Assembly: GCA_016788705.1 (NCBI GenBank)
Contig: JAEUSQ010000059.1
Location: forward strand, 84,449 to 148,448
Direction of reading: 5' to 3'
DNA: 64,000 bases
From: Bacteroidetes Order II. bacterium
GTDB taxonomy: Bacteria; Bacteroidota; Rhodothermia; Rhodothermales; UBA2364
The notes beneath the pieces are model-generated. The model saw only the letters and a list, made by a program, of their open reading frames with translations. It was not told the DNA's origin and ran no database searches. The position numbers and the translations under genes were made by a program. This document shows, piece by piece, positions 5,694-59,184 of this stretch. Numbering within the stretch: position 1 is the first letter of the stretch; the number at the start of each line of letters is the position of its first letter.

Positions 5694-7310
5694 TTACTTC
5701 AATAGGGTCATCCGGCCCATTTGTGTAACTTTGCCAGTGGTTAATTCGGCTGTCACACGGTAGAGATAAGTTCCTGATTGCAAAGATGCAGCATTGACGT
5801 TCATGGTTTGATTTGCACCACCTTGGAAGGCCATTTTAGGCATTTCCATGACCAGACGCCCCTGAATGTCATATACCTGAATACCCACTAAGGCATTACC
5901 GGGTAAATCAAAACTGATCTTGGTAGAAGGATTAAACGGGTTCGGGTAGTTGCCTTTAACGGCGAATTCAGCAGGAAGTTCCACTTCACCTTCAGTTGCC
6001 GTTACTGGGCCGCGTTTGAAATTAACTTTATTTGAATTGCTGGCCACTGCAGAATTCACCCCATCGTTTACTAATACACGGTGGTAGAACGTTGCGGTAG
6101 CACCACCAGCAATTTTAAAAGTGTTTTTCAACAACGCATTCAAATCACCAGTGGTGATGGAAAAACTCGTCGCTGAAGCAGCATCTTTTACATACGTAGC
6201 ACTACCTAACGGAAAGGTCGGATCCGTAGAAAGTTGCCATGTATATTTTAAAGGGTCATTTTCTGCATCCGTTGCAGCATTCCACGAAACAGTAAGGGTA
6301 CTGGTTGGAGCACCTTCCACTACAACAGTGGCATCATTCGTTGGAATAAGACCAGCAATTGCAGATGGACGCGCATTCACAACGCCACGAGTAAGTTCAA
6401 CCGTTGCAGCAGTACCCAGCGTGGTATTTACCCCATCCGAGGCATTAGCACGATGGTAAACTGTTACTTTTCCACCCTTTGCCACCCCAGCAGCAGCGAG
6501 GATATCATCCACTTGCTTAAAGGTAAGGGTTACTTTGGTGTCTGCTGTAGTTGCCGAATTTAAGATGGTCGTAAATGCTGCATCGGTAGCCAGTTGCCAA
6601 GTATAAGAAACGGCTTTTCCATCTGGATCCGTAGAAGCAGACCATGTTGGCGAAATTGTGTCGGTTGGCTGACCTGCTACCGTTACTTGAGCGCCATTCG
6701 CAGGACTCGTGATCGAGGTCTGGGTAGGAGCACCATTTACTTTCACTGTCCCGCTGATTGCCGGATTTATGGTCGTGGCCGCAAAGGCTTTGTCCAAAAT
6801 GGTCAATTCTTCCAGAGTAACCGTTCCCGACTTTCCGGTCGCAACCCCACTATTAATGCTTAAGGGAATGTTTGCCAAAAATCCACCACCCGTTACCGAA
6901 TTACTGGTTTGGCTTGCACTGTTCAACGCAACCGAAAGGGTAATCGTTGTTTTGGTTCCACTGGTTGTAATTATTTCGAGACCAGCACCGTTGAAAATCG
7001 TCCCACCATTTTGCGTTAAGAGATTCGCCTGGTTGGACTTCGTCCCTTTCAGACCAATTGTTTGCGCTGTGTAGGTGAAAAACGTATTATCAAACGAGAC
7101 CTTGATCTCGAATGCAATGGCATTGGTCACATTGGAAGCATGTACCTCAACATTGTGGGTATCTCCACCTTTGAGGTTGCTTTCAACACTTCGCAAGGCT
7201 TGATCACCTGCTTTCAAATCAAAGTCAATAGAGCCTCCGACCTGTGCGCGGCTGATCCCAACCAAAGCAAAAAGTGCCAGTACATATACGTGAATCTTGA
7301 TCAATTTCAT
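5694..7310 (-). CDS. Secreted T9SS-sorted protein with cohesin-like domain and two Fn3-like repeats
   Basis: 538 residues. A signal peptide (about 1-22, ending SRA-Q) leads into a beta-rich domain at about 25-190. Its VSFDNTFFTY segment, GGGFLANIPLSI segment and repeated Gly/Thr strands resemble the cohesin fold. Two related modules follow at about 195-308 and 315-433, each with a TWQL(A/S)TD motif and a YHR..V.DGVN motif, like fibronectin III domains. The C-terminal 90 residues are a type A T9SS sorting domain (YPNPFNPST, QSGTYLYRV, ending MTLLK), so the protein is probably exported and surface-attached. AGAGG precedes the ATG. It lies downstream of, and is co-oriented with, the dockerin-bearing gene. 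No catalytic domain is visible. Confidence 0.85.
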   Translation of the reverse strand: MKLIKIHVYVLALFALVGISRAQVGGSIDFDLKAGDQALRSVESNLKGGDTHNVEVHASNVTNAIAFEIKVSFDNTFFTYTAQTIGLKGTKSNQANLLTQNGGTIFNGAGLEIITTSGTKTTITLSVALNSASQTSNSVTGGGFLANIPLSINSGVATGKSGTVTLEELTILDKAFAATTINPAISGTVKVNGAPTQTSITSPANGAQVTVAGQPTDTISPTWSASTDPDGKAVSYTWQLATDAAFTTILNSATTADTKVTLTFKQVDDILAAAGVAKGGKVTVYHRANASDGVNTTLGTAATVELTRGVVNARPSAIAGLIPTNDATVVVEGAPTSTLTVSWNAATDAENDPLKYTWQLSTDPTFPLGSATYVKDAASATSFSITTGDLNALLKNTFKIAGGATATFYHRVLVNDGVNSAVASNSNKVNFKRGPVTATEGEVELPAEFAVKGNYPNPFNPSTKISFDLPGNALVGIQVYDIQGRLVMEMPKMAFQGGANQTMNVNAASLQSGTYLYRVTAELTTGKVTQMGRMTLLK

Positions 7311-7506: not shown

Positions 7507-10500
7507 TTATTTCAGAAGGGTCATTTTATTGACCTTCACGAAGTTGCCTGCTTGGATGCGATAGAGGTAAACACCACTTGCAACCGGAGCGCCCGCGTTG
7601 TCGGTCGCGTTCCAAGTCATGGTGTGTACACCAGCTTCAACTTGACCAGCAACCATCGTTTTAACGAGGCGGCCTGTCATGTCGAAGATTTGGAGTTTAA
7701 CATTGGCGTTTTCAGGCAAGCTGAAGCGAATGGCTGTTGTGGGGTTGAACGGGTTCGGATAGTTTTGATCCAAAGCGAATTCACTTGGGATGCCAACACC
7801 CGTTACTTCGTCTGCACCTTTAGCAGCACGGGCCTCAACCACGATGATATCGCTGAGTTTTACACTCTTCGCTTTCGCGCTAAGTTCAATCACCGCGATT
7901 ACGCCATTTTCAACTGCGCCTGCGGTAGAAGCAACAGCATATGTATTGCCGGAAGCTACCGAGAGGCTATTACCTTTGAATGCAGCGCCATCTTGTACCT
8001 TAACAACTTCGCCACCATCAACCGCGATGTCGAATTGGAAGCCTTGTACGTTGGCCAAGCCATTGGCACGAACATAAGCAAGGTTGCCTTTTACTTCAAC
8101 ACTCAACTTCGCAGAAGTTGCAGGGAGTTGCTCGGTTTTGCCGAGTGCAGCACCTGTGCCGAAGAGTTTCGCAAAGCGGGCATAGTCGGCCAAGCCGATT
8201 GAACCGTTGTTGTCGAAGTCAAATGATTTGGTGTAGTTACCAGCGCCAGCGGTTGCACCGTAGGTTTGGGCAAATACAGCCAAGTCTTGAACGTTCACTT
8301 TGCCGTCGCCGTTGGCATCACCAGGAACCGTACCGCCGATGGCTAAGCCAGCCGCAGCATTAGAGGCTTCTGAAACATTGATTCCGTCAGATGCCTTTAC
8401 AGTGTAGTTACCATCGCCAAAAGCAGGTGCTTCGAAGGTAATCGAAACTTTACCATCTTTTACGATAGCTTGGGTAACCGGAACGGTTGCCACAAGTGTG
8501 CCAGCAGCGTCATATACCTTGTATTCGGTAACTTTATAAACCGTCACAGTATTACCAACACTCGTTCCGAATGCCGGTCCGTAGGTTTCAAAGCGGCCAT
8601 GATCGGAAGAGGTGAACGAAGCAACCAATTGCTTGCCAGCATCACCGTCAACGATCGAGAGGTCTTTGCCAACATTGGCTGGAGGTACATCGTCGGTCAT
8701 GTTAACCGTGCCCCATGCAACCATGTTGGAAGCAGCGCCAGTAGCAAGCGTGTAGTTGTTACCTGCTTCACGTACGCCATCGTCTTTCGTCATGTTTTCG
8801 CCAACCACTGCTACACCAAATGTAACCGTTCCGCTGGTCGGAGCAACAGCAAATGTTACCGCAAATTTATCGGTACCAGTTGTACTATTTGAACCAGTTG
8901 ATGGCGGAGCAAATTGGGCAACCAACGTGGTTACACCACCTTTCGTCATGTAGATTTCATAGCGGGCAACTTTGGTTGCACCGAACTGATAGCTCGGATG
9001 GAACGGATCGTTAGTCGAGCGACAGATCTCGCCAGATACCACTGCACCATTGGTTCCTGCTACAAGAGCCGGTCCAGTTGCGCCGCAAGCGGTGATCGGA
9101 GAAACCGTACGTACCAAGTCACCGGCTTGAACTTTACCTGCATTCGGACCATTCAAGGTAGCCGTTGGGGCTGCACCTGCGCCGTTTTGCAAATTGAAGC
9201 GTGCAGTTCCATTCAGGTCTTTAATCTTGTTGATGCTCGAAAGCGACACCTTCAAGTTGTTAGACGGAGCAAGCATGAACAAGTTGATCGGGTATGTGGT
9301 ATAGGTGACAGCACGCGCTGTAACATTTACTGCAATGATGTTTGCAGGAGCAGGCAACGAGTTTGTATTGTTCATATCGAACAAGATGTCACCATTATCA
9401 ATGCCCGAAACATTTTCGGAGAAGTTCACCACAAAGGTGTTCGGGCCGATAATATTGGCACTTACAATTGCCGGACCAGCATAGTCCATAGAAGCAACAC
9501 CTGTGCTATTGGCAGCGATCTGGTTCGAGTTGAAGTCAGAAACAGCACCAGCAGCATTGGTTACTTGTGGCTTGGCGTCGGTATCACCTTCTGCTGCACC
9601 ACCTGTTTTTTCCACATTAAGTGCAATCCATTCATCTTGGAGTTGATCCACTTGATTCATCGTGGTGGCCGTGTTTTCGGCACCATTAGACCAATAATAG
9701 GTACGTGGGTCATTAGCACCACCAGCAGTGGCTGGTTTAATGAAACTATTGACCGTATATCCTGCAACAGTGAACTTAGAAGCATCAACGGTGTTGTCGT
9801 CAATTTCCTCGTCCAATTTAACCAAGATAAGATCCACTTTACCGTCAGAATTGCGGTCTAAGGTCCAAGACGCAACCACTTTCGGTGCATCCGGATCATT
9901 GATCGAGATGTCAACGCCATTGGTGATGTTGCCTTTGCGGTCGTTGCTGGAAGCAGCAGTTCCCCAGATGGGGTTTCCACCCTGACCAGCACCGGTTATT
10001 TGCATGGCTGTTACTACAGCAACACCAGAAGCCTTCGCTACCGTCGGGGTTGCGCCATAGCGGTCCGTTGGGAGGTTCGGGATATTCAGGGTGTTAGCAA
10101 TCGTAACCGTCGCACTGCGTCCGGAGACGGCGGTTGTACCAGCCATATCGGAAACATAGTTGTTATTGACCGTAATGTTTGCACGTACAATACCCAATAC
10201 ATCACCCAATACGTCGTACTTGATCAGGTTGTTATTGGTCGCATTTTCAATCGTAAAGGAGGTTGAACCAGCAGTAAAGGTAATTGCGCCACCACCGTAA
10301 GCAGAAGCATGGGTTGGAGTCGGGGTTCCTGGAGGTGTACCATCGTTGGTATAGGTAAAGTTTCCTTCGGCAGCACCAACTTCTTTTACGGTTTCAGAGA
10401 ACGTTACACGAATGCGCTTGAAGCCCACTTGACCAACAGCGCGAACAAGTACAGGCTCTGCATCATCAAAGAGGCGATCCAGAACAGCCGGAGTACCACT

Positions 10501-46026: not shown

Positions 46027-48402
46027 TTATTTCACCAACATCACCTTTTGCATTCCGCTGAAGTTCTCACCCATCAGACGCACAAAATACGCACCGCTTT
46101 GTAAGGTACTGCCATTCAGTTGGATGGTTTGGAGCGTATTGGCTTCTGGCACGCCTTGGTACAAGACCGAAATTTGTTGTCCCAACGCATTGAACAGCGT
46201 CATGGTAACGGCTTGTTTTTGGGCAACGGCAAAGGTGAGCGTGGTTTGCGGATTAAACGGGTTGGGATACGCGGGATTCATCACAAACGTACCCGGAACT
46301 TCTACCGAAACAGTGACCTGTTTGCTGTATTTTACCCCGCCGTCTTTGTCCACACTTTTCAAGCGGAAGTAGTGTGTACCCACTTGCAAGCCTTGTATGG
46401 CTTGGGTATAGGAACGTACATCCGTACTGGAGCCTGCTGCTTGTACGGTGGCCACGGTTTTCCACGCGCCATCTACCAAGTGTTGCACCTCGAATACATC
46501 GCTATTCACCTCCGAGATGGTTTGCCAGTTCAGCGTAACCATATCTTTCGTCGCCTGCGCCGTGAAGTCCGCCAACTCGATGGGGAGGGGGGTAGAGGAT
46601 GCATTCTGAATGGGGAAATTTAGGGGAGCCAATATCCCACCTGTTGCAACCACTACGTCTTGAGCGGTTGTAGAAAAATCCATTCGCAATGCCAATGTAG
46701 GACCCGCGCTTGTTTTACCAAGAGCCATACTGCCCACACGGTCAACCCCCCAGATATATCGTTTCGCAGTAGCTGTGATTGACTGAGACAAGCCCGTCAC
46801 TACATAATCGGTACCATCATGGGTTGCAGTACCCAATAGCGTATCTCCGCCATCAATTAAATTGTCGCCATTTACATCCAACCAAAGTTTTACGGCTGCA
46901 ATATCAGAGGTAGTTGCAGTTGACCCAGAAGCGATAAAGCAACGGGCTTCCGTAACAGTAGCGGTACCATGATCTGTATTCAGTGAGAAACCCAAGTATT
47001 CTTTGTCTGTTGTAGGAGGATCTGTACTGGCTCCTGTCCCAGCATCAAAAGTGCGTTCGGCATAAACCATCGCAGGCATACCAATTTGATGAACCCCTGA
47101 TGTCGGTTTTGTATGTCCTTTATCTGAATCCGTAATAAAAGTGTTTATATAGACACTCTGATCAGATAATTCCAAGGTACTACTAGAACTATAGGGCATG
47201 GACATATACATAAGTGCTTGTGTTGCGCTACCGGGCTGCGTACCAGAGGATCCAACCCTATACCGCGCTGTTTGTACTTTGGTATCTGCGTAGGTAGCTC
47301 CCCCACCCCAACTTTGCCCAAAGCCATCCGTTAATACAAAAGCATAAGAGGCCATATCGCTACCAGTACGTACAAAACGATTGAAGGCTGAAGCAGTATC
47401 AGAGGTACGAAATGATGCAAGCAAATACACATAGCTTCCGTCTTTGTACATTTTCACACTATTGACATTACCGGTAGCACCAGAACCCTCAAAAGTTTCT
47501 AAGTTAGTACGAGGTAACTGAATACTCCTTGAAGGCAATACACCTGTCCCACTGGAAGCGAATGCAAACCCATGTATGGCCCTTTTAGAATTCGCAGGAT
47601 CCCCAATCCAAATATTTCCTTCGGGATCAAACGTTACATCTCGAACAGCACTTGACCCAAAAACTGCATAAGTTGTTCCGGCACCATCCATATCGGTCGC
47701 ACTTTCAAATTTCATGGTATAAGTTCCAGCCACGCCTGTTGTACTTTCCCATACTTCAAGATGCGTACCCATGCCCACGGCAGCCGTTACCGTTCCTGTA
47801 CTACAATCTCCAGAAACTCGTACTGCCAGTCCCCTTCCAGTACCGCCCGCTCCAGAAGCATTGCTCATCTGCGTGATGTGTGTAATACCTGTTGCGTTTG
47901 CCGTGCTTGCAACCCCACCACCAGAAGGAGAGCCACCAAGTGCGCCTCCGCTAAAGTACCATAGCCGAGCAGTAGAACTAGCGCCGTCAATCACCCATAC
48001 TTTATCACAAGTAGGCTCATAAAAAATCGCTTGAATAAAGCTAAAGTTCGCAGGTGTACCACCAGAGGTAATTAGCCCGGTATCCGTATAGTTAGATGCC
48101 CCATAGGCTTCCAACTTAATGGCGGCAATACCAACAACACCACCGGTACGCCCATCCCCTGTTGTGGTACCACCTCTGCCAATATAGACAATTCCGGGGG
48201 AACCCGGTCGGTAGGCAATGCCGCGTTCTTGACCTGTAGTATTGCCATAGTTAGTACTGGTAATGCCTGTGATACCGCCTGTATTGTCGTTGGCAACATC
48301 CAAAACATTATAGCCAGCACTAAAAGTCCATTGGGCTACTGCCACTTTCGGCAAACAAAACGCCAGAAGCGTAAGCCCGACAATTTGTATTCTTGTTTTC
48401 AT
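46027..48402 (-). CDS. T9SS-sorted secreted protein, DUF4623-like
   Basis: 791 residues. A signal peptide (about 1-23, ending VAVAQ) leads into a long Gly/Ser/Thr-rich beta-propeller-like domain (about 30-450) with YRPGSPGIVYIGRGG and DVTFDPEGNIWIGDPANSKR, patterns seen in DUF4623 and related six- or seven-bladed proteins. A region near 500-570 contains DVNGDNLIDGGDTLLG, a dockerin-like or Ca-binding loop. An Fn3-like domain (about 620-700) and a T9SS sorting domain (PAYPNPFNPQTTL, QSGAYFVRL, ending MLVK) close the protein. It is the tandem neighbour of a related shorter gene; the 36-bp gap suggests one operon. Function unknown. Confidence 0.82.
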   Translation of the reverse strand: MKTRIQIVGLTLLAFCLPKVAVAQWTFSAGYNVLDVANDNTGGITGITSTNYGNTTGQERGIAYRPGSPGIVYIGRGGTTTGDGRTGGVVGIAAIKLEAYGASNYTDTGLITSGGTPANFSFIQAIFYEPTCDKVWVIDGASSTARLWYFSGGALGGSPSGGGVASTANATGITHITQMSNASGAGGTGRGLAVRVSGDCSTGTVTAAVGMGTHLEVWESTTGVAGTYTMKFESATDMDGAGTTYAVFGSSAVRDVTFDPEGNIWIGDPANSKRAIHGFAFASSGTGVLPSRSIQLPRTNLETFEGSGATGNVNSVKMYKDGSYVYLLASFRTSDTASAFNRFVRTGSDMASYAFVLTDGFGQSWGGGATYADTKVQTARYRVGSSGTQPGSATQALMYMSMPYSSSSTLELSDQSVYINTFITDSDKGHTKPTSGVHQIGMPAMVYAERTFDAGTGASTDPPTTDKEYLGFSLNTDHGTATVTEARCFIASGSTATTSDIAAVKLWLDVNGDNLIDGGDTLLGTATHDGTDYVVTGLSQSITATAKRYIWGVDRVGSMALGKTSAGPTLALRMDFSTTAQDVVVATGGILAPLNFPIQNASSTPLPIELADFTAQATKDMVTLNWQTISEVNSDVFEVQHLVDGAWKTVATVQAAGSSTDVRSYTQAIQGLQVGTHYFRLKSVDKDGGVKYSKQVTVSVEVPGTFVMNPAYPNPFNPQTTLTFAVAQKQAVTMTLFNALGQQISVLYQGVPEANTLQTIQLNGSTLQSGAYFVRLMGENFSGMQKVMLVK

Positions 48403-48438: not shown

Positions 48439-49776
48439 TTATTTAAGCAAGGTAAGAGGTCGGGTGGTATGGAAGGTTTCGCCAGAAAGCCGGACGAAGT
48501 ACGTTCCAGCGGGTAGGTTACCAGCGTTGATACGCACGGTTTGTAAGGCATTGGCCGGAACCGAACCGGTAAACAAGGCCTGAACAGACTGTCCCAAGAG
48601 GTTAACCAGCGTAAGTGTGACGGATTGGCCTTGCTTTACCGAAAACGTGACGTTTGCACTTGGATTAAAGGGGTTGGGATACGGGGCACTCAGGTAGAAC
48701 GCGGTAGGTAGTGGGTTTTCCTCGCGATCGGAAAGTGTAGCCAAAGAATTGGTGGTATTCACCGATACGATGCCATTGTTGGTAGCCATGGCAAAAATAG
48801 TGGCCGTTCCATCGCCATTGATTCGTACATCCACATCTCCAGCGCCATTCCCATTGGCACTTGAGGCTGGATTGGCAATATCAAAAAAGCCATAGCTCCA
48901 TCCCGTAGCAAAGGTATTGCTGAGATTGGCCACACGGATGCTATATTGTGCCCCAGCAGCACCAATCGTTCCACTATAAGCAAAGGTGGCTAAAAACGTT
49001 TTCCCACCCGAAGAAAAAATCCGCAGGGCATTGTTGTTTACCGTCCCACCAATCGAAGCAGCCGGCAAGGTTCCGGCGACGGTCGCACTGGTTGTCTCAT
49101 AATATTTAGGAGCGGTGCTGTTACCATTCACCACAAATCCTGCGCCATAAGGGAAAACGGAGGCCTGGTTACCGATGGTGGCATCGGTGCTGTATTCTGT
49201 TCCACTTAACACAGTCCCACTAGCCGGAAGCGTGAGTTTATATGCCTTGTTATTGGTCACACTTGCCACCCAAATGGCCAGGTTGCCCCCACTTACACTT
49301 CCGGTAACGGTTATTTTGTCGCCCAACCGAGCAGCGGCTGGGGTTTGGAAGGTATAGTGCGTGGCTTCAAGTTGGCTTTCTGTATCCCAGCGGTGGCAAC
49401 GAAAGGGCGAGGCCGCATCCGAGTTTGCACTCACGTTACAGGCAAAGATTACTCCATCTTCACTTACCCCAACATCATTCAGCACCAAAGCGCCGCCTGC
49501 TACACCTGTCAACGACAACTCGGCGGGAGAAGCCGCAGCACCCGTATTGGCATTTAAGATGTAAATATGGTTGCCCGTATAACGCGAAACATAGTAGAGA
49601 CGTTCATTTCCACCTACCACACCATAGGCCAAGCCACGGTATAAATCCAACGAGGAACTTCCTTGGCCAAGTCCGGGCATAGAACCATGCGCCAAACTCC
49701 AGTTGGTGGTGAACTGAGCATAAAGGGAAGTTGTTCCAAAGCATAACATTAAAATAAATGGTGTCAATGTTTTCAT
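48439..49776 (-). CDS. T9SS-sorted secreted protein, shorter DUF4623-like relative
   Basis: 446 residues from the ATG at 49776, which begins a signal peptide (MKTLTPFILMLCFGTTSLYAQ). A propeller-like domain follows (about 25-340: YRGLAYGVVGGNERLYYVSR, SRYTGNHIYILNANTG, GDVDVRINGDGTATIFA). It ends in a T9SS sorting domain (PYPNPFNPSANV, PAGTYFVRLSG, ending LTLLK). The layout parallels the 791-residue protein but lacks its Ca-loop and Fn3 parts. It lies directly upstream in the same transcription direction. Likely surface proteins with related binding roles; no enzyme motif is seen. Confidence 0.8.
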   Translation of the reverse strand: MKTLTPFILMLCFGTTSLYAQFTTNWSLAHGSMPGLGQGSSSLDLYRGLAYGVVGGNERLYYVSRYTGNHIYILNANTGAAASPAELSLTGVAGGALVLNDVGVSEDGVIFACNVSANSDAASPFRCHRWDTESQLEATHYTFQTPAAARLGDKITVTGSVSGGNLAIWVASVTNNKAYKLTLPASGTVLSGTEYSTDATIGNQASVFPYGAGFVVNGNSTAPKYYETTSATVAGTLPAASIGGTVNNNALRIFSSGGKTFLATFAYSGTIGAAGAQYSIRVANLSNTFATGWSYGFFDIANPASSANGNGAGDVDVRINGDGTATIFAMATNNGIVSVNTTNSLATLSDREENPLPTAFYLSAPYPNPFNPSANVTFSVKQGQSVTLTLVNLLGQSVQALFTGSVPANALQTVRINAGNLPAGTYFVRLSGETFHTTRPLTLLK

Positions 49777-49956
49777 AGGATGGGTACGATTGAGGGTTAG
49801 CAGAAGATTAATATTTTGGAAATATAATTCCAAAATCAGACTTCTGAAAGGGCTTTTCCAAAAAATAGGCAGGTAAGCAACTGGGAACACCCCATGGCTA
49901 AAGCAATATCTATAAATTTCCCGTTTTTTGTCTCATCTGTGGCAAAGTAGGAGGAT

Positions 49957-49988
49957 AAAAAAAGGGAAGAAACGCCTTGTCTCTTCCC
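49957..49988 (-). terminator. Terminator of the six-gene operon
   Basis: On the minus strand a 7-bp stem (49982-49988 with 49964-49970, GGGAAGA/TCTTCCC) and an 11-nt loop run into seven T residues (complement of 49957-49963). It lies 25 bp after the last gene's stop. Confidence 0.85.
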
Positions 49989-50013
49989 CACAAACCTGCA
50001 AGACGATGTTCGA

Positions 50014-50637
50014 TCAACGAATCAGGCTCAGACCTTCTTTGGCAGAAGTATCATCAGGTGCATAGAGCAAGACTTTATTAAACAATACCTTGGCTTCGTT
50101 TCTTTTACCGAGGTTAAACTTTGTCCAACCCAACATCAGCAAGCTGTAATAATCAAAAGGATACATATTGAGCACTTTTTGAAGATATTTTTCCGCACGA
50201 GGATAATCTTTACGATAATAATAAGCCACCCCTGTTTGGTAATTTGCTTTTGAATGATTGGGGTCTATCTGGAGAATTGCCAAATATTGATTGAGCATGT
50301 CATTCCATTTTTCAAGTGCGTATGCAGGCTGAACGTACCCTAACCGGGCCTCGATGGACATCGGCATTTGTTGGATACATTTTTCATAATAGCTTATTGA
50401 TTCTTGGTACTTACCGTCTAAATAATAAAGCCAGCCCAAACGGAGGTTCATTTCATATGTATTGCTATACACCCGACGTAGCGAAGTGATTGCCGATGCA
50501 TAATCCTTGTTATTCTCGGCGGTATAACTGCTCTTAAAAGCCTGTTGAACGTCCTGTGCATAAAGATTATTTACGGATGTGAACAGGTAAAAAAATCCGA
50601 TTAAACAGATAAAGGAAGTAAGTTTAAAGCGTTTCAT
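50014..50637 (-). CDS. Secreted TPR protein, last gene of the operon
   Basis: 207 residues. A signal peptide (about 1-27, ending LYAQ) precedes at least four tetratricopeptide repeats with the pattern Y-x-x-A-I/E (DYASAITSLRRVYS, YQESISYYEKCIQ, YPRAEKYLQKVL, NEAKVLFNKVL). It begins four bases inside the preceding gene (ATGA-type overlap), so the two are translationally coupled. It is probably periplasmic, docking with the TPR-barrel protein. No partner is known. Confidence 0.82.
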   Translation of the reverse strand: MKRFKLTSFICLIGFFYLFTSVNNLYAQDVQQAFKSSYTAENNKDYASAITSLRRVYSNTYEMNLRLGWLYYLDGKYQESISYYEKCIQQMPMSIEARLGYVQPAYALEKWNDMLNQYLAILQIDPNHSKANYQTGVAYYYRKDYPRAEKYLQKVLNMYPFDYYSLLMLGWTKFNLGKRNEAKVLFNKVLLYAPDDTSAKEGLSLIR

Positions 50638-51866
50638 GGTTTTATTTTAATTCCGGTTATGATCGCATGGTTTTGATAGGACGTGTTGGATTTTTCTTTG
50701 GCTTCCAACTGATAAACGCCGTACAATGAAACGTTGGGGGTTACAGGGAATTCAGCCATTAAGCCCCACTTTTTCGTCGTAAGATCCGGTGAATTGAGGA
50801 ACAAACTTCCCTTATCTTCAGAAGCCAAAGGAACACGTCCAGCGTAATAGAAGGTAGTAAGGTTCAATTTCGGGTGAATTTGGGCCCAGATCCGGGCTTT
50901 CATCAAAAAGAAGACTTGGCTATTCTCCTCAAGTAAGGTATCATATTTATGCAATGCCACTTCATTTTGCCAACCCAGCCATATGCGCCCTTTCCCCATT
51001 CGCGGCCAATACCCCACGGACAAGCCCACCTGTGTGGTCGTTGCACTGGAGTCCTTAACTGTAGCCCCTGCACTGGTTTGGAGTGCCGTTTGTAGGCGCG
51101 TCCAAGTTACCTGCGGGGTTATTTCCCAGCGAGTGGGGGCCCACCTCCAGCCTCCATATAACGCGAGGCCCTTTTGTTCCATGCCAAAGGTGTTGCTTTT
51201 GCCATTCATTCCAACCACATGCAGGGCTGTTTCGACGGTTTGGTTTGGCACAACGAGTCCTTGATTCAGCAAATAATATTGGTACTGTTGATAACGAAAT
51301 CCATTATTTTCCTGAGCGATGTACGCCCCTGCATGGTAGGCCTCCATCGTACGACCCAGTCGATGGCCTATGCCAAGGGTGCTCAATACCATGGGTTTAA
51401 GTCCTTCAAGGGTGCTTAACTTTGCACCCGGCTCTATATAAGTGAACATCCACTTTCGGTTAGGCTTCAGTCCCAATCGTGCTTGGTCTTCTGGCTCCAT
51501 CTCTCTCGCTACTGCATTTGCCTCCAGACCACGATCCAGCAACAATAGCGTAAAGTAGAGGTATTCTTGTGTAATGGGTTCGGAGCCAAAATATGCCAAA
51601 GCTTTGCGAAAGTGTGGCAAGGCTTGCGTGTATTGCTTTTGGCGATAATACGCAATACCCAAATACTGCCGGATCACAAAGGCATCATTGCCTTCCGCGA
51701 GGGCTTTTTCACAAATTTGTACCACCTCCTTCCAATGGGCTTTCTGAAAGGCGGCATCGGTTTGATCCAAAATTTCCGGATAAGACAAGGACCTTTCTTG
51801 TGCCTTTACGTTTCCCCAAGTGGTGAACAGTAACAACAAATAGAGGCAAAGACGAATGGATTTCAT
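50634..51866 (-). CDS. TPR plus outer-membrane beta-barrel protein
   Basis: 410 residues. A signal peptide (about 1-22, ending VKAQ) is followed by two to three TPR units (about 30-130: FQKAHWKEVVQICEKAL, YTQALPHFRKALAYFG). A domain of short amphipathic strands with many aromatic residues then runs to the end (about 140-410: YGGWRWAPTRWEITPQVTWT, LNLTTFYYAGRVPLA, VSLYGVYQLEAKEK). This reads like an outer-membrane barrel with a periplasmic TPR adaptor. It starts 14 bp after the urea-transporter-M23 gene. A secretion-channel or envelope-scaffold role is possible but unproven. Confidence 0.78.
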   Translation of the reverse strand: MKSIRLCLYLLLLFTTWGNVKAQERSLSYPEILDQTDAAFQKAHWKEVVQICEKALAEGNDAFVIRQYLGIAYYRQKQYTQALPHFRKALAYFGSEPITQEYLYFTLLLLDRGLEANAVAREMEPEDQARLGLKPNRKWMFTYIEPGAKLSTLEGLKPMVLSTLGIGHRLGRTMEAYHAGAYIAQENNGFRYQQYQYYLLNQGLVVPNQTVETALHVVGMNGKSNTFGMEQKGLALYGGWRWAPTRWEITPQVTWTRLQTALQTSAGATVKDSSATTTQVGLSVGYWPRMGKGRIWLGWQNEVALHKYDTLLEENSQVFFLMKARIWAQIHPKLNLTTFYYAGRVPLASEDKGSLFLNSPDLTTKKWGLMAEFPVTPNVSLYGVYQLEAKEKSNTSYQNHAIITGIKIKP

Positions 51867-51880
51867 GTATTTTAAGTGGC

Positions 51881-54094
51881 TTATAATGCGGGAGAAATAC
51901 GCCTTAAGGTAAGGTTTACGTTTCCAAATTGCCCCGAAAACGCCGTGATATGCCCTTGTACAATTTGGGTTTTAAAGGCATATTGTTGTTTTTTATGGCT
52001 TCCAATAAATAACTCGACCGATGAACGGACGGTGATATCCTGAGGTACTTCTTCGGGCGCTTCATTGATGGCCGTAAATGCAGCTTTCCCCGTTACATGA
52101 AAAGGAGACCAGAAGTCAGAAATCCAGCGCCTTGGAGTTTGCCAGATTTGGTGGAGTGGTAACTCATCAAAAACAGAAACCCCCCGATAAAATGCCAATA
52201 ACACCTTATGACACCCCATATAAAAGGCAAATAAGTCACTTTTTCGGTCGCCTTCATAATGGGTAAAATAAAAAACGGTTCCATCATTCACAAAATAGGC
52301 TCGTGTACCCGAAGCAACTTCATGGAAGCAGGTCTTATTCCAAGCATCTGTTTCCACTTGCCAATGGGTTACTTCGCCCTCCTTGTCTTCTCGTTGGAAA
52401 GAAACCGTTTGACCAGGGAGAAAAGCAAAAGCGGCAGCTAAACCTGCATGGGATTGGACAGCCGATATCTGTTCTCCTTCTTCGGGATAGCCATATTGCC
52501 TTAGTGCTACCCCTTCTGTTGAATGGGTTAAATAGGCTGCGATGGGATACCGAAGGGTAGCAGCACCAATATAAGGCGTGGCCTGTAGCTGAAAATGCAA
52601 ATGAGGCTCTGGCGAACGTCCAGAATTCCCTACTACACCGAGACGTTGTCCGGTTTGTACAATATCGCCAGTTTTTACACAAACCGTCCCCGCTTTCAAG
52701 TGGCTCAATTTGGAATAAAGGCCCTCTGCATGTTGGATAACCACTGTATTGCCCCAATTTTGCCCAAGATTGATCTGTCCGATTTCATTTTCGGGAATGT
52801 GGTCTTGTACAGCCACAACAACCCCATTTGCGGGTGCCAAAGCCGGAAGGTTATAACAATAATAATTTTCTCGATGCATGCCGGGATACTCAAACGTTCT
52901 CCCTTCGGCATCCGTCTGATCGAAATCCCAAGCGTATTGCCAATGTTCCCGATGTGTAATTCCGCCATTATGCCCTTGCGATACACGCCATGTTCCAAAA
53001 AAGGGTAAATAAATTTGCTGCCAAACAAATCCTTTAAACCTTTGTTTTTGATTGTGATACGCATATAAATTTTCTTCTGGCGAACGCAATTGTAACAAAA
53101 CGGGTGCCAATACATCGGTACGATTAGAGAACTTAATGACGTACATCATAAAGCCAGTTGCCAGTGCAAAAGGCAACGAATATATAGGCACCTGAAACAT
53201 CTTCGCGAACTCAGATAGTCCCGCATTCAACGTCATAACCAACGGAATAACGGCCATAGCGAGGCCATAGCTATGTACATTAGGAATAAAAAAGTACCCC
53301 CCCAGCGCCAAGGTTGTCAGGACGTAATTAAACCCTAATGTGCCGTAATTTAAGGTTGTGAGGTCCATACCCAACATCCATTGCGAACCATAGCCCAGCA
53401 AAAAACCCATAATGGAAAGCGAAAACAAAATACGCGAAGCAACCAACAATCCCAGTGCAATCAAAAGCCCGGCAAACCAATTGTTCTGGAACAAAATGGC
53501 AGCCAACGAACGCAAATAACCTTCCATTAAACTGGGTAATTGCACCCCTAAAAAGGCTTCATAAGCCTGAACCAATCCACTTCCACCCCATTTATAAAGT
53601 TCATTGAGGGTATAGATAGAACCGGTACTCCACTCCAGCAAAGCAAATTGCCGCGAGGCCACTTCCATCATCCAAATACCCAACACAAAAGGCAGGCTGA
53701 GTACCGGAACTCCCCAATGCGAGAGGCCGTAATGTAGCGCAACCCCTATTACGAGCGTAAACATACAAGCCGCTACCAACAAAAGGACAAAAGGGAAATT
53801 TACCTGAAATAAAAGGGCCAACCCAAAAACGACCAACAGGCTATTAAGCCCCAACATGCCGCCACGGATAAGCGATTTATCGAATCCGGCGATCCACGCC
53901 AGAGCATGTGTGAGCCAAATGGCCGGAAGCCCCCAACGCCCCACTTCCCAATTGGTGAAAGAGGCCACCATCACCATAACCGAAAGTACACGGCTTTGGG
54001 AGAAAAACAGTTGGCCATAGCTGTTCAGGGTACTCTCTAACCACAAGGGCCACAACCGCCAGATTTTCAGCAACAATTGGGATGTTTTGGGCAT
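51881..54094 (-). CDS. Urea-transporter domain fused to an M23 (LytM) peptidase domain
   Basis: 737 residues. About ten hydrophobic segments fill residues 25-330, with the urea-transporter-like features LNSYGQLFFSQSRVLSVMVM and RGGMLGLNSLLVVFGLAL (Asn in the selectivity region). From about 370 an M23 domain begins: HWQYAWDFDQTDAEG (metal His/Asp near 388), GVVVAVQDHIPENE, GNTVVIQHAEGLYSKLSHL and PHLHFQ (near 498). The M23 fold usually cleaves peptidoglycan cross-bridges; all metal-binding motifs look intact. A C-terminal beta domain (about 540-737) follows. Urea transporters alone are about 300-400 residues. Fusions of this kind are known in Bacteroidota (recalled). The cargo of the channel is not known. 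Confidence 0.85.
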   Translation of the reverse strand: MPKTSQLLLKIWRLWPLWLESTLNSYGQLFFSQSRVLSVMVMVASFTNWEVGRWGLPAIWLTHALAWIAGFDKSLIRGGMLGLNSLLVVFGLALLFQVNFPFVLLLVAACMFTLVIGVALHYGLSHWGVPVLSLPFVLGIWMMEVASRQFALLEWSTGSIYTLNELYKWGGSGLVQAYEAFLGVQLPSLMEGYLRSLAAILFQNNWFAGLLIALGLLVASRILFSLSIMGFLLGYGSQWMLGMDLTTLNYGTLGFNYVLTTLALGGYFFIPNVHSYGLAMAVIPLVMTLNAGLSEFAKMFQVPIYSLPFALATGFMMYVIKFSNRTDVLAPVLLQLRSPEENLYAYHNQKQRFKGFVWQQIYLPFFGTWRVSQGHNGGITHREHWQYAWDFDQTDAEGRTFEYPGMHRENYYCYNLPALAPANGVVVAVQDHIPENEIGQINLGQNWGNTVVIQHAEGLYSKLSHLKAGTVCVKTGDIVQTGQRLGVVGNSGRSPEPHLHFQLQATPYIGAATLRYPIAAYLTHSTEGVALRQYGYPEEGEQISAVQSHAGLAAAFAFLPGQTVSFQREDKEGEVTHWQVETDAWNKTCFHEVASGTRAYFVNDGTVFYFTHYEGDRKSDLFAFYMGCHKVLLAFYRGVSVFDELPLHQIWQTPRRWISDFWSPFHVTGKAAFTAINEAPEEVPQDITVRSSVELFIGSHKKQQYAFKTQIVQGHITAFSGQFGNVNLTLRRISPAL

Positions 54095-54110
54095 GACACA
54101 ACTTGTTTTT

Positions 54111-55469
54111 TTAATGGACCAATTCCATCAGGTGTTCAGGAGTAGATTCGTTCATGACGAGGTCGTCTAAGGTCTCGGCGGCACGGATAATGTGTGGTTT
54201 CCCATCCATATCCAATAGCACCACATTCGGGCGCAGTGTGATAAACTGCATCCATTGTGTCATGTTATAGGCACCAACCCGATGTACCACCACCTGATCT
54301 CCTCGGTTGAGGGGTGGGAGTTTAATATGCTCGCGGATCACATCAATGTTCATACACAAAGGGCCATATAATACGGCATCTTCTCCATATTGGCCGCAGG
54401 CTTGCGCTGTCGAAATGGTATGTTCGTACCAAAAAGCGGTAAAAAGGATGTTGACACCAAAGTCTAATATGGTGGCGCGGCGACCATCCGAGAGCCGTTT
54501 ATTGGCAATAACCGATCCCAAAAGATATCCTGCATCATCCACCAGTGCCCTTCCCGTTTCCAAGATTAAGGTGGGTAATTGCCCTGCCTGAAATCCAGCA
54601 TTCAGCAAGACATCTGTAATGGCCTCGGCATAGTCGTGAAAAGAAGGCGCCGCATCTGTCCCATTCAAATAGGCCCCACGCAAGGTATTTTTGGTGGCAA
54701 ACCCCCCACCCAGATCCAGATACGAGAGCGAGTGCCCAAAGTGTTCGGCGATATGAAGCGCCAGTTTGGATAATTTTTCCGCTGCTATTCGGTAAGCATC
54801 TGTCGAAAGCATAAAGGTGCCAATATGACAATGTAAACCCAGCAACTCCAAAATGCCGCCTGTCATAATTTTCTGAACGGCTTCCATTGCCTGTCCAGAT
54901 TCATAGTTGAACCCAAAACGATCCCAGGTGGGGTACACACCCGTATCCATATTGACACGAATCGCCACTTTTGGCTTGATGCCCAGTTCAACGGCCACCA
55001 TAGACAACATATTCAGTTCATCAAAGTGGTCTATATGAATTAAAGCACCATGCTGAACCGCCGTTCTCAGATCATCTTCGGTTTTTTCCGGACCATTGAA
55101 GATAATTTTATTGCCCGGAACACCATTTCGCAAGGCTTTTTCAAACTCGAACCGAGAAACCACCTCCGCCCAAGAACCTTCTTGATGGAAAACCTGACAA
55201 ACCGCATTCAGGTAATTGGTTTTATACGACCACGCAAATTGCACTTTGGGATAACGGGTGGAAAATGCACGGTAGGCCGCTTTATAGGTTTGGCGCAGGG
55301 TCCGCTCGGAAATCACAAATAACGGAGAGCCATAATCGGCGATTAACTCTTTGACGGCCATGCCATCTATATGGGTAAAAGGCTTGAACCCTGGAGAAGC
55401 CCCAAACTTTTGGGTGATGGTACTGTTGAGCATCCGGATTATCGGACGTTCATATCTTAGTTTAGACAT
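54111..55469 (-). CDS. Type III PLP-dependent decarboxylase (diaminopimelate/ornithine decarboxylase family)
   Basis: 452 residues from the ATG at 55469 (MSKLRYERP); 43 open codons upstream overlap the neighbouring gene and are unlikely. The alanine-racemase-like barrel begins with GSPLFVISERTLRQTYKA and has the PLP Lys83 in AWSYKTNYL. Then come the strand/loop set HCHIGTFM, LDLGGGFATKN and the Glu-Thr-Gly ETGRALVDDAGYL. Near 370 is GPLCMNIDVI, matching the catalytic Cys of the family, and further on VGAYNMTQWMQF. The usual CES-D is C-M-N-I-D, so substrate recognition differs from a standard LysA. It lies 49 bp after an ATP-grasp gene. The amino-acid substrate is not known. Confidence 0.85.
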   Translation of the reverse strand: MSKLRYERPIIRMLNSTITQKFGASPGFKPFTHIDGMAVKELIADYGSPLFVISERTLRQTYKAAYRAFSTRYPKVQFAWSYKTNYLNAVCQVFHQEGSWAEVVSRFEFEKALRNGVPGNKIIFNGPEKTEDDLRTAVQHGALIHIDHFDELNMLSMVAVELGIKPKVAIRVNMDTGVYPTWDRFGFNYESGQAMEAVQKIMTGGILELLGLHCHIGTFMLSTDAYRIAAEKLSKLALHIAEHFGHSLSYLDLGGGFATKNTLRGAYLNGTDAAPSFHDYAEAITDVLLNAGFQAGQLPTLILETGRALVDDAGYLLGSVIANKRLSDGRRATILDFGVNILFTAFWYEHTISTAQACGQYGEDAVLYGPLCMNIDVIREHIKLPPLNRGDQVVVHRVGAYNMTQWMQFITLRPNVVLLDMDGKPHIIRAAETLDDLVMNESTPEHLMELVH

Positions 55470-55518
55470 CGTATTGCTATTTTGAAAGTTAAGAAGCGGG
55501 GGTAATGATCTGGTAGGA

Positions 55519-56601
55519 TTACCAGTAAAACGCCTGAAGTTTTGGACGATGTTCCAGCGTCCCTTGTGTAGAGAATGTCGCAAAGTCACGAAGTTCACAG
55601 ATCATATCAAAGGCGTAGCGGATAAACATTTTTCCGACTTCATAACCCACCATTGGCGGCACTTCTTCACCAAACGCCAGCCGAACCAAGGCCTCGGGGT
55701 GGTTTTGTCCGCAAGCAGCAGAAAGATATACCCAGGCAGGAAAGCGGGGATTGATCTCGATCAGGTACACCTTACCCGTTTTTTCTTCTTTGATCAGTTC
55801 CAACTCCATGCCCCCTGCCCATTTTGTCTTGTGCATAACCCGCTCGGCCATCTTTAATAGGACGTTATCACGGATAGAGATTCCGGCCCAAGCTTTTCCC
55901 GCCTGAGTGATGTAGGTCTTGCGCATGGCTACCGCCCCAATCAGCACCCCTTTTCCATCTCCCAAAGCCGTCACATTTAGCTCCTGACCCGTAATGTGCG
56001 CTTGCACGACCACTGGAGTCCCCCATTTGGCAGCCAGTTTGTAATAGTACTGAATGGCCTCGGCCTCCGAGTGGGCGGTATAGGCTTCGTAGTATTTGCC
56101 CTTTACAACCACAGGATATTCAAACGTCCGAAGGGTTTTTACGAATTCCGGAATTGAATAAACTGTTTCGGAGTATGGAACCAGAATCCCGTGCGCTTCG
56201 CCAAATTGGTTCAGCTGATGCTTGAACCGCTCCTCAAATTGCGCCAACGTTGGTAAAAACGTTTTTATCCCCATATCCGAAAGAAAAGATTTAAGTTTAA
56301 TAAATCCAGTAATTTCGGCATCCAATGTTGGGATAATCATATCCATTTGCTCTTGCTCGTGTATCACCAAAAGACGGTCTAACAACACCTGATGGCCATT
56401 AGAGGGATAAGGAATCTGATAGACTACATCCACCCATTCGTTCATGTATATCCCAGGATCTAAGGCTTCATACGCCAATCCCACAATCCGTACATCAAAA
56501 TAAGTACTTTCACGAAGTGCCCGAATAACGGAAATACCCGGCCCTGGACTGTCTATGGCATTGAGACCTGTAACAGCGATGGTATAAAGGGGCTTGCTCA
56601 T
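55519..56601 (-). CDS. ATP-grasp domain ligase
   Basis: 360 residues. The N-terminus has a nucleotide-binding-like start (YTIAVTGLNAIDSPGPGISV) and a Rossmann-type preATP domain. The ATP-grasp core has PVVVKGKYYEAYTAHS, a VVVQAHITGQELNVTALGD segment, and the metal-binding GGMELELIKEE...YLIEINPRFPAWVYLS (ELELI and EINPRF). Carbamoyl-phosphate synthase-like or carboxylate-amine ligases share this layout. It probably joins an amine to a carboxylate using ATP, but the substrates are unknown. It begins inside the PqqD-like gene (4-bp overlap) and is followed by the decarboxylase. Confidence 0.85.
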   Translation of the reverse strand: MSKPLYTIAVTGLNAIDSPGPGISVIRALRESTYFDVRIVGLAYEALDPGIYMNEWVDVVYQIPYPSNGHQVLLDRLLVIHEQEQMDMIIPTLDAEITGFIKLKSFLSDMGIKTFLPTLAQFEERFKHQLNQFGEAHGILVPYSETVYSIPEFVKTLRTFEYPVVVKGKYYEAYTAHSEAEAIQYYYKLAAKWGTPVVVQAHITGQELNVTALGDGKGVLIGAVAMRKTYITQAGKAWAGISIRDNVLLKMAERVMHKTKWAGGMELELIKEEKTGKVYLIEINPRFPAWVYLSAACGQNHPEALVRLAFGEEVPPMVGYEVGKMFIRYAFDMICELRDFATFSTQGTLEHRPKLQAFYW

Positions 56602-56843
56602 GATGCCTCCAAGATTTGATAGTGGCGTAATACGTCAAAAAAATCGGACACGTCTTTCTCGATAGTGGCAAGATCGGCATCATACCGATGCTCAATCTCC
56701 CGCACCACTTCGGCTGTGGTTTGGCCTTGTCGCAATAACCGGAGAATTTCCGCTCCAACCGGATTGACCGAGAAGGAGTCACCACGCTCGGCGTGAAAGA
56801 CGAATCCACCTTCGCTAACGGCTACATTTGGATTTATGGTCAT
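56598..56843 (-). CDS. PqqD-family small protein (RiPP-recognition-element-like)
   Basis: 81 residues, the whole of a PqqD domain: GFVFHAERGDSFSVNPVGAEILRLL, GQTTAEVVREIEHRYDAD and DVSDFFDVLRHYQIL. The small winged-helix-like fold in this family usually binds a precursor peptide and presents it to a modifying enzyme. Here no precursor peptide gene is recognisable upstream, so its partner may be different. It is the first gene of the six-gene operon; the next starts four bases inside it. An inverted repeat lies about 100 bp upstream of its start. Confidence 0.88.
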   Translation of the reverse strand: MTINPNVAVSEGGFVFHAERGDSFSVNPVGAEILRLLRQGQTTAEVVREIEHRYDADLATIEKDVSDFFDVLRHYQILEAS

Positions 56844-57236
56844 GGCTTTAGGGGTTTAGATGGTTTAGCGTTTCTGGTTATAAGAAACGAACATAAACAG
56901 TAAAGATGGTTTAGAAGTACCTACACAAGTCCCGATAATGTATGACAAAATTGTCACAAACATTTATTTGAAGGCGCCATACCAATGCAAGACGGGCAAA
57001 AATTAAGAATGCACGTTTATTTCAATCCCAAAGAGATTGGATGTTTATAGGGATTTTAGATGTTTGTAGAAATTGGTTCAAAGCAATGGATACGGCTCGT
57101 ATGTAGGATGCCATTGGTTATAAACATGGGAACATTGGAACCCGTTGGGTTCTATCGGGTGTAAAGTGGCGAATCTATTAACCGATGCTAGGCGGATTAA
57201 TACCCGATTTTGGCCCCTCACATACGGTACTAAAAC
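56844..57236. other. Upstream region of the six-gene operon, no gene seen
   Basis: The 522-bp gap between the PqqD-like gene and the NqrM-like gene (56844-57365) contains no convincing short coding frame on either strand, including for a precursor peptide. Inside it are the inverted repeat at 56943-56956 and, beyond 57237, the terminator of the NqrM-like gene. Confidence 0.55.
56943..56956. promoter_or_regulatory. Inverted repeat TGACAA-AA-TTGTCA upstream of the six-gene operon
   Basis: Perfect 6-bp arms separated by two bases, about 100 bp before the first gene. The form suggests a dimeric regulator site. No regulator gene is adjacent, and a -10/-35 pair could not be fixed with confidence. 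Confidence 0.45.
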
Positions 57237-57721: not shown

Positions 57722-58966
57722 CTATGCCTTCCAATACGCCTTTATTACTTGAAGCAACTGGATACACTCTTCCATGCTATTATAAATGTGTGTGGAAACA
57801 CGGATGGCGTTCAGGTTGGCCTCCGTAACCGAACGGACACGAAAACCATTTTTAGACAAATAGGTCAATAATGAACCCGTATCACCTGCTTTTGGCCGGA
57901 ACGTGGTGATAGAACTGGCCAAAAGTGGGTTAGTCGGGGAAAGTACCTCAACCGGTAACAAACTACGTAGTTCTTGGTTCAGAAACCGCGCCAGGCCAAA
58001 GCCGTGATTGGCCACCTGACGCATGTCCAACTGGTTCAGAAAGGCAATAGCCGCTGCAAGCCCCGCTGCTTTCGTTTCGTCTTGCGTACCCGCCTCATAC
58101 CGTTGGGCTGTAGGATGATACGAGAGTGTGTGGGGCAATTCGTAATCCCCATTAGAGTATGCTCCCACATCGGTGGGAATAATACGGTCTCGACGGGCCG
58201 GATCTATCCACAAAAAACCAATCCCATGCGGGGCCAGCATCCATTTATGCGCACTGGCCGCGAACGAGTCGCATTGCAAATCTCTAAGATTAAAAGGAAA
58301 CATGCCTGCCGATTGTGCCCCATCCACATGAAGCCAGATATCTTTTTCGCGTACCCATTCCCCAATTTCCTGAACAGGCATACGAATTCCGGAGGGCGAG
58401 GTAACATGACTGATTTGTACGACTTTGGTTTTGGGCGTCCACAATGCCTTCACAGCCTTGATGTTTTGCGAAATACTTGTAGGCGAGGGGGTAAAAACCT
58501 TAACCTTGATACCAAACTCCTTTTGCAAAACCATCCAAGGGATGGCGCCACCCGGATGTGCCTCGTTGTCCAAAATCACTTCATCTCCGGGTTTTAGACG
58601 CAACCCAAAAGCAATTGTGCTATTTCCCTCCGTGGCATTACGATTCAAGGCCAAATCCTCCGGACTGCACCCCAAAAAACCAGCCAAAGGCGCATGGGTA
58701 GCCGCAAAAACATCGTGACCCGGCTCCCCAAGTGTCTGATACCGAAGCAGGGCATCTTGTACCGCCTGAATAACCGAATAAGGCGCAGCGCCAATACCAC
58801 CCGTATTAAAATAGACACGAGAACCTTGAAGTGGAAACTGTTTGCGTACCTCTTCCCAAGACTGCAAAGAAAGGATTGCTTGATTGGTATTTGGCATCCA
58901 AGCCCCCGACGAGGCCATAAGGGCAGACCCCATACCAAGATGCGTAAAAAAATCTCGTCGCTTCAT
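57722..58966 (-). CDS. Tat-exported class V aminotransferase-fold PLP enzyme
   Basis: 414 residues from the ATG at 58966 (MKRRDFFTHLG), a twin-arginine-type signal; the 42 codons upstream include the tandem repeat and are not coding. PLP-Lys near 240 in AASAHKWMLAPHGIGFLW; the early strand set VYFNTGGIGAAP and ALNRNATEGNSTIAFGL, the HVDGAQSAGMFPF Asp motif and GTQDETKAAGLAAAI match isopenicillin-N epimerase- and cysteine desulfurase-like enzymes of fold type I. Exported members are less usual; the substrate is not known. A 21-bp perfect tandem duplication lies just upstream. Confidence 0.85.
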   Translation of the reverse strand: MKRRDFFTHLGMGSALMASSGAWMPNTNQAILSLQSWEEVRKQFPLQGSRVYFNTGGIGAAPYSVIQAVQDALLRYQTLGEPGHDVFAATHAPLAGFLGCSPEDLALNRNATEGNSTIAFGLRLKPGDEVILDNEAHPGGAIPWMVLQKEFGIKVKVFTPSPTSISQNIKAVKALWTPKTKVVQISHVTSPSGIRMPVQEIGEWVREKDIWLHVDGAQSAGMFPFNLRDLQCDSFAASAHKWMLAPHGIGFLWIDPARRDRIIPTDVGAYSNGDYELPHTLSYHPTAQRYEAGTQDETKAAGLAAAIAFLNQLDMRQVANHGFGLARFLNQELRSLLPVEVLSPTNPLLASSITTFRPKAGDTGSLLTYLSKNGFRVRSVTEANLNAIRVSTHIYNSMEECIQLLQVIKAYWKA

Positions 58967-58999
58967 GTGTAATGAACCTCTTCTTGGATGGTAGCGCAC

Positions 59000-59041
59000 A
59001 CAGGTGGCGTGTGTACACCAACAGGTGGCGTGTGTACACCA
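59000..59041. repeat. Perfect 21-bp tandem duplication with GTGTACAC core
   Basis: Two identical 21-bp units in a row (59000-59020 and 59021-59041), each containing ACAGGTGGC and the palindrome GTGTACAC. They lie 34-75 bp before the aminotransferase start and between divergent genes, so they may be a doubled operator. Two copies are too few, and without spacers, to be CRISPR. Confidence 0.7.
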
Positions 59042-59184
59042 TTGGTATTGTGGGACTAAGATAGATGTCTTGCTTTTTGAAAGGTAAAACACTCCATGAT
59101 TTCTTTACAACAATCAGCAGGAACCGAATGGCTCTACAAGAATTCAAGTTGTTCTATCAAGTCATTACAACCAAATATCACCCT

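Follow-up and report, generated by a model that had tools for sequence, protein, structure and literature searches.

In Bacteroidetes Order II. bacterium (Bacteroidota; Rhodothermia; Rhodothermales; UBA2364; assembly GCA_016788705.1), six adjacent genes on the minus strand of contig JAEUSQ010000059.1 encode a PqqD-like protein, an ATP-grasp ligase, a pyridoxal phosphate (PLP)-dependent decarboxylase, a urea transporter (UT)-like channel fused to an M23 metallopeptidase, and two tetratricopeptide repeat (TPR) proteins. They are numbered here within a window of 64,000 nucleotides, the whole stretch of DNA analyzed (positions 84,449 to 148,448 of the contig). The PqqD-like protein belongs to the recognition elements (RREs) of ribosomally synthesized and post-translationally modified peptides (RiPPs), and its candidate partner is a leader-like tag on the decarboxylase of the same operon. 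The domains of the six proteins were assigned by Pfam and NCBIfam searches as follows:

56598..56843, minus: PqqD-like discrete RRE (P0001, 81 aa; PqqD match 4e-15)
55519..56601, minus: ATP-grasp ligase (P0002, 360 aa; ATPgrasp_Ter 2e-8, PRK12767-like 2e-26)
54111..55469, minus: PLP decarboxylase of the alanine-racemase fold (P0003, 452 aa; Orn/DAP/Arg decarboxylase 6e-34)
55401..55469, minus: leader-like N-terminal tag of the decarboxylase, residues 1-23, MSKLRYERPIIRMLNSTITQKFG (Y6xxP9xI11, invariant K21, G23)
51881..54094, minus: UT-like channel plus M23 metallopeptidase in one open reading frame (ORF) (P0004; UT 4e-51, Peptidase_M23 3e-16)
50634..51866, minus: secreted TPR protein with a putative outer-membrane beta-barrel (P0005, 410 aa; TPR matches)
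50014..50637, minus: secreted TPR protein (P0006, 207 aa; TPR matches)

The distances between successive genes are -4, 49, 16, 14, and -4 bp (negative values are overlaps), exactly as first described. For the decarboxylase the ATG start was taken; its longest ORF opens with GTG at 55598.

Order and distribution of the cassette

The gene order PqqD-like / ATP-grasp / PLP decarboxylase / UT-M23 fusion / TPR(-barrel) / TPR is phylum-wide in Bacteroidota. Two congeners and many further genomes, at 30-70% protein identity, have the genes in identical order and on the same strand, far beyond chance, and some ten genomes of other families within the class carry the cassette at 37-60% identity for most genes, complete within the contig limits. 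The original prediction regarded the operon as one system and proposed a comparison of gene neighbors in related genomes; the outcome strongly supports this view.

Urea transporters in 394 Bacteroidota genomes are of two kinds, stand-alone proteins of about 300 aa and UT-M23 fusions of about 690-750 aa. Every fusion examined sits inside a cassette: all 27 further fusion-bearing genomes have the PqqD, ATP-grasp, decarboxylase, and UT-M23 genes in this order, and TPR genes follow in nearly all of these loci (undetected in L089 and L090). None of the cassette partners was found near the stand-alone UT genes (n = 7). With a profile of the ATP-grasp protein, 60 of 295 genomes in one class and 33 of 197 in another yield relatives; the cassette is widespread, matched in about one-fifth of the genomes in one Bacteroidota sample and about one-sixth in another. 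A single-protein query over genome contigs matched only in the UBA2364 congener. Cassette relatives were not found on viral contigs, nor did the decarboxylase query at 1e-80 match any plasmid.

Beyond the Rhodothermia- and Balneolia-like lineages (such lineage labels, for example Ignavibacteria-like, are a reading from the sequences), the barrel often has its own gene behind the TPR gene. The barrel part of P0005 aligns with the separate barrel protein of the Ignavibacteria-like loci (hhalign probability 94.8). In these loci (L094-L109), many cassettes are preceded by a conserved protein of about 280 aa with a type IX secretion system (T9SS) sorting signal and end with a separate outer-membrane barrel of about 280 aa, for example L097:2856-3698 and 9230-10048, an arrangement that hints at a secreted partner of the cassette there. 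Outside the Rhodothermia- and Balneolia-like lineages, many loci encode a secreted T9SS-sorted protein immediately ahead of the PqqD gene. The T9SS-sorted protein and the barrel are the only conserved neighbors beyond the cassette in 36 loci. One genome assembled as a single contig (G338 contig C1) has a cassette at both ends (L086 and L111), which is probably an overlap from circular assembly.

The PqqD-like protein and the tag of the decarboxylase

It had been noted from the window that no precursor peptide gene lies nearby and that the PqqD-like protein may therefore use a different partner. The former holds: clustering of small ORFs within 2 kb of 36 cassettes gave only antisense ORFs and ORFs common to close relatives, and a separate precursor peptide was rejected on this basis. 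The separate precursor gene by which a RiPP cluster is recognized was not found within this distance, and in the 12 genomes searched the tag occurs on the decarboxylase only. The latter is supported as well, the best candidate for the partner being the N-terminal tag of the operon's own decarboxylase.

About 28 residues precede the fold of this enzyme, and profile alignments with Protein Data Bank (PDB) entries begin at profile position ~31. Over 101 non-redundant cassettes the consensus of this extension is K-x-x-[YF]-E-[RK]-P-x-[ILV]-x(5)-G-x-x-[NS]-K-F-G. The core [YF]xxPx[ILV] is present in 101/101 decarboxylases; counted from the aromatic residue, Pro(+3) and Lys(+15) are invariant (101/101), Gly(+17) is found in 100 and Gly(+11) in 96, and the spacing is constant. 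Discrete RREs of lasso peptide pathways recognize [Y/W]xxPx[L/V/I/F/A] (PMC13381572), so that the decarboxylase tag, judged by its sequence, carries the motif bound by lasso-type RREs. When 12 genomes were searched with a profile of the tag, the decarboxylase was the sole match in each, and the next hit was partial (E 0.005).

P0001 is the only PF05402 protein of the genome. In profile comparison with the PDB, TbiB1 (2e-12) and TfuB1 (2e-9) come out as its best relatives. An AlphaFold2 (AF2) model (mean predicted local distance difference test score, pLDDT, 77) has three strands and three helices (E8-10, E15-17, E23-25, H28-38, H43-54, H58-74), and superposes on leader-bound TbiB1 with Z 14.6 (root-mean-square deviation 1.3 over 81 residues) and on leader-bound TfuB1 with Z 13.4. 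As modeled, the PqqD-like protein appears closest to lasso RREs solved with their leader peptide (Z 13-15). In LppB, Asp70 forms a hydrogen bond with the motif tyrosine, Asn33 holds the chain in its kink at the proline, and Phe74 divides the pocket (PMC13381572). These residues correspond to D64, N27, and F68 of P0001 with identical spacing; N27 is retained in 101/101 cassettes, D64 in 89/101, and F68 in 95/101. Eight of 11 pocket positions are hydrophobic in all rows, while position 57 (LppB V63) is mismatched. Another role considered for the PqqD-like protein, a carrier with a modified C-terminus, was rejected because the C-termini are not conserved.

Furthermore, residue 64 varies together with the tag. 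Counted by rows, it is Asp with all 89 Tyr tags and Tyr, Ser, or His with all 12 Phe tags, as expected if Asp is needed only for the tyrosine hydroxyl. Of the 81 columns, only column 64 shares no residue between rows with Y tags and rows with F tags, and its pair with the tag has the highest normalized mutual information among all column pairs.

The discrete lasso RREs (TbiB1, TfuB1/FusB1, and LppB, with YxxPx[L/V/I] leaders) thus have in common with P0001 the fold, the pocket positions, the Asn/Asp contacts, and the ligand motif, whereas their motif is on a precursor peptide and that of the cassette is on a 450-aa enzyme. Neither a B2 transglutaminase-like protease nor a lasso cyclase is among the conserved neighbors of the 36 loci, which were not scanned with lasso models. 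An RRE fold in a non-RiPP pathway is also known from the oxidase BmdC of the bacillamide nonribosomal peptide synthetase (NRPS) system. The RRE-like domain of BmdC was judged to be a relic (PMC8795117), while the RRE of the cassette keeps the binding residues and has a matching tag.

Chemistry, membrane topology, and flanking elements

The ATP-grasp protein P0002 retains the ATP/Mg motif EINPR. For P0003, the nearest solved enzyme is N-citrylornithine decarboxylase (2e-58 by single sequence, 2e-71 by profile). In enzymes acting on lysine, ornithine, arginine, and diaminopimelate (DAP), the catalytic Cys is followed by an acidic residue, which binds the distal amine, while FigC has M355 (PMC7857480). 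P0003 has the loop C372-M373-N-I-D, with Met after the catalytic Cys; DAP-binding Arg343 is replaced by Thr344, and the citrate contacts of FigC, R387 and H357, are replaced by Q405 and I375. Since the acidic residue and the DAP-binding Arg are absent, the original assignment of P0003 as a decarboxylase of basic amino acids is not supported. The active site is similar to that of N-citrylornithine decarboxylase and unlike those of enzymes that make lysine or polyamines. Because of these replacements, and of the change in the citrate contacts, the substrate is probably an amino acid already acylated at its far end, though not by citrate. The lysA equivalog model gives 236 bits against a cut-off of 298 and the FslC model 231 bits against 500, below the thresholds for LysA and for N-citrylornithine decarboxylase. 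In one draft contig (L054, G074:C261) FFLFFMNID stands in place of the Cys loop that is invariant elsewhere, probably through a sequencing error.

The Cys-Met loop is found in the cassette decarboxylases and in a fusion protein from Streptomyces; as a trait of decarboxylases for attached amino acids (FigC/SbnH/AcsE/MccE/BtrK), Met has been shown for FigC only. The fusion, a 758-aa protein found with the ligase query on a Streptomyces zaomyceticus plasmid (L247:5992-8268, NZ_CP108525.1; annotated as hypothetical), joins an ATP-grasp part (28% identity) to a decarboxylase part (23%, loop SCMEND). It has no visible tag, and no PqqD is annotated within 6 kb on either side; the next gene (195 aa) has no Pfam match. 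The lack of RRE and tag where ligase and decarboxylase are physically fused fits an RRE that serves as a docking device.

Two known pathways are similar in logic. The FigA/FigC (FslA/FslC) rhizoferrin pathway, source of the closest solved decarboxylase, is alike in the Cys-Met loop and in ligation before decarboxylation; it differs in its NRPS-independent siderophore (NIS) synthetase ligase and citrate-binding residues, whereas the cassette has an ATP-grasp ligase, Q405 and I375, and no siderophore genes. In butirosin synthesis, BtrJ, an ATP-grasp ligase, and BtrK likewise combine a ligase with an alanine-racemase-fold decarboxylase for an attached amino acid. There the amino acid is attached to the acyl carrier protein BtrI, whereas the cassette has no carrier protein and, instead, an RRE and a tag.

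P0004 consists of a UT-like channel (residues ~1-320), an M23 domain (~365-510), and a C-terminal region. Its UT domain is homologous to dvUT over all ten membrane helices (3k3f, 2e-29), as to UT-B, so the urea-transporter fold proposed earlier is supported by homology, while the pore residues differ: position 28 is Q in 28/35 fusions, position 199 is never E, and filter residue E187 is replaced by A, L, or S. The M23 zinc and catalytic residues H381, D390, H465, H498, and H500 are invariant in 35/35 fusions. In UTs both termini are on one side of the membrane, which is cytoplasmic in the mammalian proteins. In the 35 fusions the Lys plus Arg count is 10.6 on the side of the termini and 3.5 on the opposite side, with the same bias in 35/35 (6.5 and 0.9 for short loops), and 7/7 stand-alone UTs have the same polarity. 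No hydrophobic segment was found ahead of the M23 domain in the fusions. With no additional membrane segment in front of it, this domain is predicted by the positive-inside rule to be cytoplasmic. Its proposed cutting of peptidoglycan and deployment in the envelope are therefore doubtful. In one single-contig genome (L116, ~6999-7020) the UT-M23 gene is split by an apparent frameshift, which may be an error or a real break. It looked like a natural UT/M23 split that could have revealed the location of M23, a reading set aside because the break falls in a T7 homopolymer and can be accounted for by a shift of one base.

Two elements flank the operon:

56929..56959, minus: conserved promoter-like block upstream of the operon, holding an inverted repeat at 56943-56956
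49963..49989, minus: intrinsic terminator of the operon (11-bp stem, T7)

The terminator is real, as had been stated. The inverted repeat, TGACAATTTTGTCA, was confirmed and occurs only once in the genome; its palindrome is broken in both congeners, and the conserved part in these two genomes is the surrounding TTGTGACAATTTTGnCATACnTTATC. For this reason the block reads as a promoter, and an operator was rejected. Directly downstream of the terminator, two secreted proteins with T9SS type A sorting domains are encoded at 46027-48402 and 48439-49890 (minus). They are not common to congener G238, which has an opposite-strand gene next to the cassette, and with the terminator in between they were rejected as cassette members. 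Upstream, at 57722-59092 (minus), lies a class V aminotransferase-like protein (Pfam 1e-53), not a conserved neighbor of the cassette. An anti-phage defense system was also considered and rejected: PADLOC models matched none of the six operon proteins.

A proposed mechanism for the cassette and its rivals

We infer, with somewhat better than even confidence, that the cassette specifies a complex of ligase and decarboxylase in the cytosol, linked to a route for export. The PqqD-like RRE would bind the N-terminal YxxPxI tag of the decarboxylase in the way that lasso RREs bind leaders, a step for which the comparative evidence is strong, and would thereby dock the tagged decarboxylase onto the ATP-grasp ligase. 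The ligase would form an amide on an amino acid, and the decarboxylase would then strip the alpha-carboxylate of the acylated amino acid, the order of FigA/FigC and BtrJ/BtrK, suggested here by the active site and by the natural ligase-decarboxylase fusion. The small product might pass the UT-like inner-membrane channel, the fused M23 domain on the cytoplasmic side may have the product or the tagged protein as its substrate, and the TPR and TPR-barrel proteins would serve the periplasm and outer membrane. The initial interpretation, a small amino-acid-derived or peptide product that is moved or deployed in the envelope, is retained in part.

Several points weigh against this scheme. To our knowledge, all RREs with a defined ligand bind modification substrates, and the binding of an enzyme merely for docking is without precedent. 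The tag matched no RiPP leader family in Pfam or NCBIfam, although queries of 36 residues are hard for HMMER. The row count of the D64/Tyr covariation overstates its weight: the ATP-grasp tree shows only two coupled events, of which the one in L198/L202 looks like a joint reversion, and because of this the row-based Fisher value of 8e-16 is not independent evidence. UT pores pass urea-sized molecules only. The topology of the fusion is based on charge bias and homology, an AF2 model from two sequences being useless (pLDDT 31).

The precedent that RiPP systems make the RRE-bound chain the substrate of the partner enzyme leads to a different scheme, unlikely in our judgment, in which the tail of the decarboxylase is itself modified: the RRE presents the tag, and the ATP-grasp enzyme charges Lys(+15) (K21). 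The cargo of this swinging arm would then undergo decarboxylation in cis and be released by the cytosolic M23, a carrier logic like that of Glu-S-BtrI/BtrK. The invariance of this Lys at constant spacing between two nearly invariant Gly residues, the intact M23 ligands on the predicted cytosolic side, and the decarboxylation of carrier-bound glutamate by BtrK (PMC7857480) are in its favor; on the other hand, the Streptomyces fusion couples the two enzymes without a visible tag, and the Lys may be structural. As a full account of the cassette, namely a non-RiPP system with an enzyme-borne leader, presented by the RRE, charged at Lys, self-decarboxylated, and released by M23, it would be distinctly improbable. 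We give similarly little credence to a purely structural arm of the decarboxylase dimer, by which the lasso match and the covariation would be coincidence or a lineage effect and the PqqD-like protein would bind an unlinked peptide or protein. The two changes on the tree, and the lack of any other RRE-bound tagged enzyme in the RRE literature searched, would agree with this; the motif, its spacing, the known contact residue, the invariance of N27, the sole RRE, and the absence of other tag-bearing proteins all speak together against it.

The M23 domain and the secreted TPR and barrel partners might instead suggest an envelope system, with M23 as a peptidoglycan-trimming enzyme and the small-molecule enzymes acting on the stem peptide or on products derived from it. 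This is very doubtful with M23 predicted to be cytoplasmic in 35/35 fusions, by the same polarity as in the stand-alone UTs and with no added membrane segment. An ordinary RiPP cluster with a distant precursor, on which the decarboxylase would act, seems least plausible of all: RRE plus ATP-grasp does occur in RiPP clusters (on RREs, see PMC12710340), but no small ORF is conserved within 2 kb, no other tag-bearing ORF was found in the 12 genomes, and a UT channel is too narrow for peptides. A precursor that carries another motif may still lie farther away.

A full-text search of the open-license literature found no paper describing the six-gene cassette, nor any report of an RRE/PqqD family gripping a tag on an enzyme of its own operon. 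In genome mining, PqqD/RRE domains serve to flag peptide natural products, and an RRE without a peptide gene looks like a dead end. A leader-like partner that is apparently an enzyme would widen the roles of RREs and explain some of the orphan ones. An intact M23 peptidase apparently in the cytoplasm would be unusual, and many Bacteroidota may make a small molecule that has a dedicated export route.

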